Source of the DNA: Balneolaceae bacterium
Lineage (GTDB): Bacteria > Bacteroidota > Rhodothermia > Balneolales > Balneolaceae
Direction of reading: 5' to 3'
Length of the DNA stretch: 38,857 nucleotides
NCBI GenBank assembly: GCA_017643365.1
Contig: JAEPNO010000025.1
Span: 1 to 38,857, forward strand
Below, one piece after another: positions 28,156 through 28,969 of this stretch; position 1 is the first letter of the stretch; every line of letters starts with the position of its first letter. Under the pieces are notes generated by a model. That model worked only from the letters and a program-made list of their open reading frames with translations, had not been told where the DNA came from and did not search any database. The position numbers were made by a program, and so were the translations under genes.

Positions 28156-28181
28156 TGTCATTACGAACGGAGTGAGAAACC
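28156..28181 (+). repeat. Interspersed repeat TGTCATTACGAACGGAGTGA-type
   Basis: This word, continuing GAAACC, is close to the repeats at 28832-28859 (same strand) and 28887-28912 (opposite strand), and loosely to 13048-13073. From memory, GTCATTTCGAnnGGAnnGAGAAATCT words are widespread between genes in Bacteroidota. Confidence 0.7.
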
Positions 28182-28193
28182 TAACTCTCTGCC

Positions 28194-28228
28194 TTCAAAG
28201 TTCAATTGTTGGAAGTTCAATGTTCGAC
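28194..28228 (+). repeat. TTCAATTGTTGGA-type repeat, left copy
   Basis: Positions 28198-28220 match 28931-28953 at 22 of 23 bases (core AAGTTCAATTGTTGGA). The two copies lie on either side of the DUF559 unit, in the same orientation. Confidence 0.85.
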
Positions 28229-28285: not shown

Positions 28286-28714
28286 TCATAAGTGCTTCGT
28301 GTTAGTCCTCCCTTGAGGGAGGTGGCATCCGCGAGTCAGCGGATGACGGAGGGTGTCCACTTTTTGGCTAACGTGTAGCATTACCGAATTCATGTACTTT
28401 TTAACATCGATATCATCAATTCTTAGTACATGAATGCCAAGTTGACTCAATTGATAATCTCTTTTCAAGTCTTTAGAATATTGTGCTGGATTTGAGTGAG
28501 AGCAGCCATCAACCTCAATAACCAATTGTAATTCGTGGCAGTAAAAATCTACGATATATTCATGAATTGGAACCTGTCGATGGAATTGTACTCCTAATTT
28601 TCTGCATTTGATCTGATTCCACAGCAAAATCTCCCCTAAGGTCGAGTTCTTTCTCAGTTCCCGAGCTCTTTGTCTTAGTTTTGGGTTGTATGGAAATATT
28701 ACATTTCGTGACAT
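28286..28714 (-). CDS. DUF559 (Vsr-like) endonuclease-domain protein
   Basis: 142 residues. The DUF559 core is clear: RARELRKNSTLGEILLWNQI, GVQFHRQVPIHEYIVDFYC and LQLVIEVDGCSH, with PD-(D/E)XK-type acidic residues E28, D56, E67 and D69. Relatives share the fold of Vsr very-short-patch-repair nucleases, but their role is generally not established. The last about 24 residues (from RHPLTRGCHLPQGRTNT) are encoded by a two-hairpin repeat at 28302-28358, and an inverted relative of that repeat lies upstream of the gene. The gene sits on the minus strand inside the pyrH-frr interval. No partner gene is linked to it. Confidence 0.88.
   Translation of the reverse strand: MSRNVIFPYNPKLRQRARELRKNSTLGEILLWNQIKCRKLGVQFHRQVPIHEYIVDFYCHELQLVIEVDGCSHSNPAQYSKDLKRDYQLSQLGIHVLRIDDIDVKKYMNSVMLHVSQKVDTLRHPLTRGCHLPQGRTNTKHL
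28302..28358 (-). repeat. Two-hairpin palindromic element, left copy
   Basis: Read on the minus strand: ACACCCTCCGTC, hairpin CATCCGC-TGACTC-GCGGATG, spacer CCA, hairpin CCTCCC-TCAA-GGGAGG, then ACTAAC. It has the same layout and much of the same sequence as the copy at 28771-28826, but inverted. It overlaps the 3' end of the DUF559 gene. Confidence 0.85.
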
Positions 28715-28770
28715 ACCTGTAAGAACACTTAAAACACTATTCCTTACAAATTTTTTGGGATTCGAAACAC

Positions 28771-28826
28771 AACACCCCTCACCATCCGCCCGTTGGCGGA
28801 AGGCACTCCCCTCAAGGGGAGACTTG
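28771..28826 (+). repeat. Two-hairpin palindromic element, right copy
   Basis: Read on the plus strand: ACACCCCTCACCA, hairpin TCCGCC-CGTT-GGCGGA (28785-28800), spacer AGGCA, hairpin CTCCCC-TCAA-GGGGAG (28806-28821), then ACTTG. It lies 57 nt upstream of the DUF559 start and points outward, opposite to the left copy. Confidence 0.85.
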
Positions 28827-28831
28827 TTTCT

Positions 28832-28859
28832 TTGCCATTACGAACTGAATGAGATATCC
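28832..28859 (+). repeat. Interspersed repeat (GCCATTACGAACTGAATGAG)
   Basis: Same family and strand as 28156-28181, sharing CATTACGAAC-GA-TGAGA. It follows the right two-hairpin element by 5 nt. Confidence 0.65.
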
Positions 28860-28886
28860 AATCCCCAACTTTGATCTATATCTCTA

Positions 28887-28912
28887 GATTTCTCGTTCCA
28901 CTCGAAATGACA
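28887..28912 (-). repeat. Interspersed repeat (TGTCATTTCGAGTGGAACGA), inverted
   Basis: The minus strand reads this word followed by GAAATC. It is the inverted partner of 28832-28859, 27 nt away, so the pair can form an imperfect stem. Confidence 0.65.
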
Positions 28913-28921
28913 ACGGAAGAT

Positions 28922-28969
28922 CAACGTTCGAAGTTCAATTGTTGGATGTTCAAAGTTCAATTGTTCGAC
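28922..28969 (+). repeat. TTCAATTGTTGGA-type repeat, right copies
   Basis: Contains AAGTTCAATTGTTGGA once and AAAGTTCAATTGTTCGAC once more in tandem. It reaches to within 4 nt of the stop codon of the YHYH lipoprotein gene. Confidence 0.8.

Follow-up and report, generated by a model that had tools for sequence, protein, structure and literature searches.

A DUF559 nuclease gene between two distinct palindromic ends: a likely single-gene mobile element in Balneolaceae

The unit between pyrH and frr

The window analyzed here is a stretch of 38,857 nt from a Balneolaceae bacterium (contig JAEPNO010000025.1). Within its pyrH-frr gap, two inverted two-hairpin repeats enclose a gene for a DUF559 nuclease, with the G-rich tails of the repeats on the gene-ward side (Table 1). 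The first-pass annotation had placed two such copies, inverted around the gene, at these positions, and the sequence bears this out. The minus-strand copy (28356 to 28304) reads ACACCCTCCGTC-ATCCGC(TGACTC)GCGGAT-GCCA-CCTCCC(TCAA)GGGAGG-ACT, and the plus-strand copy (28772-28824) reads ACACCCCTCACC-ATCCGCCCGTTGGCGGAAGGCA-CTCCCC(TCAA)GGGGAG-ACT. The folding of both repeats beats that of 200/200 shuffles (z -3.2 and -3.6).

Table 1. Features of the DUF559 unit in the window
Feature	Position	Strand	Description	Basis
A end, 5' of gene	28772..28824	-	outside to gene: AGTCTCCCCTTGAGGGGAGTGCC, second hairpin, GTGAGGGGTGT	sequence, fold, sub-threshold whalefall-1 match; same end in L371 and solo copies
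B end, 3' of gene	28304..28356	+	outside to gene: AGTCCTCCCTTGAGGGAGGTGGC, second hairpin, GACGGAGGGTGT	sequence, fold; same end in L371, L009/L010 and L253
DUF559 nuclease gene	28286..28714	-	142 codons	Pfam PF04480 (1e-26); residues; PDB relatives 3hrl, 3r3p
Promoter-like motif	28719..28748	-	TGTAAGGAA-N15-TCTTAC, 4 bases before the start codon	common to other DUF559, GIY-YIG and S23 genes of the family

A single layout had also been claimed for both copies, and this held only in part. The two-hairpin plan is indeed shared, but the repeats are two distinct ends, A and B, rather than equal copies. The A end can be written CTCCCC-TTGA-GGGGAGTGCC...GAGGGGTGT and the B end CCTCCC-TTGA-GGGAGGTGGC...GACGGAGGGTGT. 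A 65%-identical DUF559 unit from another Balneolaceae genome (L371) shares both ends and their order, and the asymmetry recurs in gene-less A-B pairs (dimers), two of which lie in the window's own genome (L009/L010) and which also occur in genome G013 (L253). When flanks are simply compared for an inverted match, the window unit scores just 11, owing to the difference between its A and B ends; this search was replaced by a hairpin test together with an A/B end test.

The DUF559 reading frame crosses the downstream repeat and reaches its stop codon beyond it, with the last ~25 codons supplied by the B end and the sequence that follows. An ORF runs into the repeat in 24 of 76 DUF559 cases. In a pattern search of the window's genome, CTCCC-N6-GGGAG is found at 10 places, versus 1 for the reversed control. 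The window repeat type is also found alone in this genome, without a gene, and each of the five full DUF559 genes present there lies near its own kind of palindromic repeat.

Outside the DUF559 unit, GTCATTACGAACGGAGTGAGAAA-type and TTCAAAGTTCAATTGTTGGAAGTTC repeats are present on both sides (window 28157-28225 and 28829-28958). The pyrH-frr gap is therefore a nest of several repeat classes.

The DUF559 protein

DUF559 is a large family whose biological role is unassigned in most annotations. In a profile search, the window protein is a single-domain member (PF04480, 93.4 bits versus a curated cut-off of 20.6, E 1e-26), and its catalytic-type residues E28, D56, E67, D69, and H73 are invariant among 10 diverse relatives. 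The closest relatives in the PDB are 3hrl, an endonuclease-like protein (4.6e-28), and 3r3p, a "mobile intron protein" (4e-7), with PvuRts1I as a weak match. As 3r3p is the EDxHD endonuclease I-Bth0305I, the fold family of DUF559 takes in an EDxHD homing endonuclease.

The family is not uniform, and some of its members have host roles. VsrA of Caulobacter, a DUF559 protein, acts in mismatch repair with a cytosine methyltransferase and causes SOS when the partner methyltransferase is lost (PMC12907096). In Legionella, recombination hotspots include segments that contain a transposase together with a DUF559 gene (PMC12308824); this is compatible with a mobile DUF559 unit, although it is not specific to it.

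Association of palindromic repeats with DUF559 genes

The association was assessed at 102 distinct DUF559 sites from the same taxonomic family, with 290 ORFs from twenty random 20-kb stretches as a control and a score of at least 12 defining an inverted flank match. Such a match is present at 65% of the 102 DUF559 sites versus 2.8% of the random ORFs, and GC hairpins lie on both sides of the gene at 58% and 0.7%, respectively. When left and right flanks are shuffled among the DUF559 sites, the inverted match is 9.7%. The random ORFs that score highest for inverted flanks are S23 four-helix and RAYT-like genes. Since the DUF559 sites are not independent, some being orthologous, effect sizes weigh more than p-values. 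The starts and stops of the control ORFs are crude.

Of the DUF559 flanks, 74.5% contain a hairpin with an all-C/T 5' arm, and about a quarter are without a recognizable hairpin; the corresponding figure is 1.7% for random, 3.4% for GIY-YIG, 0% for S23, and 1.9% for PIN flanks. From the outside to the gene, the common architecture seen across phyla (see below) consists of CCCCTC-nnnn-GAGGGG, a short linker (TTA, ATTTA or a second hairpin), and then GGGGTGGGT or GGGGTGT. Of 152 family flanks, 92 have the G-tail facing the gene, compared with 43 that have a C-tract facing outward.

Across phyla, a score of at least 12 is reached at 76% of 75 scorable GTDB loci, compared with 3.6% of 110 neighboring ORFs. 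Among the 23 loci outside Bacteroidota, which according to record titles come from Planctomycetota, Cyanobacteria, Nitrospirota, Ignavibacteria, Neomarinimicrobia and others, 83% have an inverted match and 93% of the flanks contain a hairpin. These cross-phylum loci were not sampled at random but are those that best match an alignment headed by the window protein. A lack of enrichment beside DUF559 genes, which would have refuted the proposal of a mobile element in the first-pass annotation, was not seen: the enrichment is very strong and specific both in the family and across phyla.

It could be argued that repeats merely collect around small genes that are dispensable and of recent acquisition. 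REP-like repeats usually lie between genes, and 4/4 hairpins in 400 kb of random sequence are intergenic, as this explanation would have it. However, PIN toxin-type genes give 0/27, GIY-YIG and S23 genes have other repeats, and the DUF559 repeat co-varies with the protein sequence (see below), which makes such gathering highly improbable.

GIY-YIG genes do have inverted flanks, with repeats of their own (for example, the GTCATCCTGAA...TTCAGGATGAC type), and S23 four-helix genes are accompanied by the AT-rich repeats TAGTATTGAGTA and CAGAATTCAG (L161-L190 and L191-L220 sets for both). The idea that any small gene would do, which these inverted flanks suggested, was rejected, as their repeats differ; each gene family seems to own a repeat class.

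The promoter-like motif TGTAAGGA(A/T)-N-TCTTAC is found at 9/102 DUF559, 5/29 GIY-YIG, 4/30 S23, 0/27 PIN, and 1/290 random genes. Its presence upstream of three unrelated kinds of repeat-flanked gene looks as if one alternative sigma factor might serve them all.

Co-variation of repeat and protein

Co-variation was measured in 5073 non-orthologous pairs of DUF559 loci, in which the outer flanks share no relationship. A palindrome score of >=16 is obtained for 2-4% of pairs at 30-50% protein identity, 23% at 50-60%, 55% at 60-70%, and 85% above 70%. The Mantel r for repeat versus DUF559 protein similarity is 0.47, with a maximum of 0.065 in 999 permutations. Since palindrome similarity tracks protein identity at unrelated loci, the gene and its repeats travel together.

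The repeats also depend on the genome. The CCCCTC-N4-GAGGGG core is present in 336 copies in 58 family genomes, compared with 4 for the reversed control, and its count per genome correlates with the number of DUF559 genes (Spearman 0.76). Core density is 2.12 per Mb in the 43 genomes with DUF559 versus 0.085 in the 15 without, a contrast that persists (p 0.002) when only genomes of 2.6 Mb or more are compared. These counts include copies that adjoin DUF559 genes, and genome kinship is uncorrected.

In a passenger model, the spread of the palindromes is the work of a RAYT/HUH transposase or of general recombination, and DUF559 is simply cargo carried between them. RAYT elements share the layout, RAYT-like genes are present in these genomes (L144, L064), and a small ORF within the dimer at site C of G028 indicates that dimers can carry cargo. 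However, pyrimidine hairpins are found in 0/8 flanks of RAYT-like (Y1) genes in the DNA examined, albeit a small sample, and the hairpin is nearly missing from GIY-YIG, S23, and PIN flanks. In addition, the repeat type follows the DUF559 type, and genomes free of DUF559 are nearly without the repeats. The passenger model thus seems unlikely.

Relationship to whalefall-1

The whalefall-1 motif (RF01762) was described by Weinberg et al. 2010 as an RNA and is listed there from whale-fall samples alone (PMC2864571). The window A end matches the full RF01762 model weakly, at 14.9 bits, and does not reach the gathering score of 37. DUF559 ends of relatives pass this score: the best copy adjacent to a DUF559 gene reaches 73 bits, and the best one elsewhere 75 bits. 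Eight genomes were examined, and whalefall-1 copies adjoin 7 of their 34 DUF559 genes, where 0.07 would be expected; G024, G052, G028, G013, G017, and G003 each have one DUF559 gene with an over-threshold copy next to it, and a weaker copy, counted among the seven, lies beside one in G005. Away from DUF559, whalefall-1 copies are mostly gene-less dimers. Of 14 solo pairs that lie close together, 11 are convergent and separated by 26-32 nt, and a gene-less dimer in the pyrH-YHYH interval of G013 is a whalefall-1 pair of 46.4 and 45.4 bits.

As the whalefall-1 entry would suggest, the repeats could instead be RNA regulators or terminators of the DUF559 transcript. This is a curated RNA family, its hairpins lie near gene ends, and the ORF enters the repeat in the 24/76 cases mentioned above. 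However, most copies are away from DUF559, many of them as convergent dimers; the gene is flanked by both orientations, which puts one of its repeats in antisense; and copies are present or absent at orthologous sites. We consider the RNA explanation very improbable; whalefall-1 shows the behavior of a DNA repeat that belongs to DUF559 units.

States of orthologous sites

No DUF559 gene is present in the 1.5 kb downstream of pyrH at 29/29 other pyrH loci read. In G013, which belongs to another genus than the window, the pyrH-YHYH interval contains a B end, 27 bp, and an A end, without a gene and in the same orientation and place as in the window; the pyrH locus of G010, which is of the same genus, contains one different palindrome. 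Vertical conservation of DUF559 at this locus, the other outcome that would have counted against the mobile-element proposal, is therefore not what is observed (0/29 loci with DUF559, and the gene-less dimer in G013).

The era locus (site A) is found in three states: bare (G042, G005, G024, G034), with one dimer (G048, G028, G036), and as dimer-DUF559-dimer (G017, G052, G057). The spacer of the first dimer is kept in G028 and that of the second in G036, as two gene losses by dimer-dimer recombination would predict. In the more distant G048, the single dimer is of the first type, suggesting that the dimer preceded the gene at this site. The direction of change is partly ambiguous; one gain with two losses is a history that fits the pattern. 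At site E, G052 has a single dimer and G017 has dimer-gene-dimer. At sites B and C, gene-less genomes are without any palindrome; therefore, either whole-unit insertion (transposition-like) also occurs or the flanks have been replaced. In the few empty sites that could be aligned, a non-systematic inspection revealed no clear target-site duplication. While some DUF559 sites are polymorphic, many others are inherited within the genus.

Two observations concern individual copies. In G057, the first dimer at site A is inverted relative to that in G017 and G052, and the immediate flanks of the gene differ (L304 versus L306); this copy may thus stem from a separate acquisition at site A. In G028, a small ORF at site C (L314, G028:C63) lies between two hairpins to the left of DUF559, as if it were cargo; judged from sequence alone, it might encode a membrane protein.

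Alternatively, DUF559 could be a host Vsr-like repair or policing nuclease that acts on palindromes (e.g., on mismatches or cruciforms) and is kept near them without moving them. Its Vsr-related fold and the SOS effect of methyltransferase loss with Caulobacter VsrA (PMC12907096) are points in favor. However, this leaves unexplained the presence or absence of the gene plus an extra dimer at orthologous sites, the several unrelated DUF559-repeat pairs in one genome, and the spread across phyla. A host nuclease of this kind is thus a remote alternative.

A model for the DUF559 unit

The best explanation is a single-gene mobile element of ~0.5 kb, which probably consists of two distinct palindromic ends and a DUF559 nuclease, with the gene-less dimers (spacer about 25-50 bp) as its non-autonomous relatives and empty sites. 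Such a unit probably works like a REP/RAYT element, but with a nuclease of the Vsr/EDxHD type. In the proposed mechanism, the nuclease would recognize the hairpin or tail of its own repeat type and nick or cut there. Repair or recombination with a gene-bearing copy would then place the gene inside a resident dimer or next to it, in the manner of a homing endonuclease gene, and dimer-dimer recombination would take the gene out again, leaving one dimer.

Comparison establishes that the gene and repeats form a unit, that the repeat type follows the protein type, that the repeats concentrate in genomes with DUF559, and that the gene comes and goes at dimer sites. The mobile-element appearance of the locus, with its palindromic ends, is thus supported by association, co-variation, and site states. 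In contrast, DUF559 as the acting enzyme, its action on the hairpin, and a homing-like route rather than transposition are inferred, there being no cleavage or transposition data. The enzyme role is inferred because of the family, specificity, and co-variation; the spreading of the repeats by a Vsr-like nuclease, as the first-pass annotation proposed, is supported by the last two and, without an activity assay, is still an inference. A homing-like route through resident dimers could explain sites A, E, and pyrH-YHYH, but at sites B and C the whole unit must have been inserted or lost. It may also be objected to the model that a gene-bearing copy could move just as a passenger of homologous recombination.

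A bolder reading, which we can neither favor nor dismiss, is that DUF559 genes between repeats are a widespread, undescribed class of mobile element, in which a Vsr-type nuclease, not a transposase, would spread palindromes through cuts in its own type of hairpin, with the repeats, whalefall-1 among them, as its ends and non-autonomous relatives. No link between DUF559 and palindromes was found in the open-access literature searched. If DUF559 proteins encoded between palindromes are indeed mobile-element nucleases, very many genes would gain a role; a repeat class that is common in Bacteroidota and present in many phyla would gain an engine; one Rfam "RNA" would be reclassified as DNA; and a second, unrelated enzymatic route to REP-like repeats would stand beside that of the HUH transposases. 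The pairing of protein type with repeat type makes this idea directly testable with purified proteins.

Comparison with known systems

The DUF559 unit resembles several known systems, each in part. The ends of DUF559 units in relatives match RF01762 above its gathering score; however, whalefall-1 is catalogued as an RNA and behaves here as a DNA repeat, and the window copy is just a distant match. Caulobacter VsrA belongs to the same protein family, but it works with a cytosine methyltransferase in repair, and no palindromic ends are reported for it (PMC12907096). As in the relation of MITEs to parent transposons, both ends of the gene-bearing unit are retained in the gene-less copies, although the DUF559 unit is without a transposase and no target-site duplication is recognized.

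Free-standing homing endonuclease genes (EDxHD, I-Bth0305I, 3r3p) encode a related nuclease domain (E 4e-7), and they too are found within or next to a sequence of which uninterrupted copies exist; for DUF559, the dimer as its own uninterrupted target is inferred from sites A, E, and pyrH-YHYH. Palindromic targets would suit a dimer. Unlike these genes, DUF559 units are intergenic, rather than in introns or conserved genes; their target would be a dispersed repeat, and homing has not been shown.

REP/RAYT elements (REPtrons) and REPINs differ from the DUF559 unit in enzyme and in tag. DUF559, a PD-(D/E)XK/Vsr-like nuclease, is the only gene of the window unit, in which an HUH tyrosine transposase is absent. 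The GTAG (or CGTC) tag is missing beside its palindromes; where REP sequences have GTAG (PMC3733652), the tail of DUF559 units is GGGGTGGGT or GGGGTGT, and the ends carry AGTC and GGGGTGT/GGGTC. The parallel with REP and RAYT drawn in the first reading of the locus nevertheless holds for the layout and the gene-less dimers: in both systems, one small gene lies between inverted palindromes, gene-less dimers are found elsewhere, and repeat types have a gene of their own.
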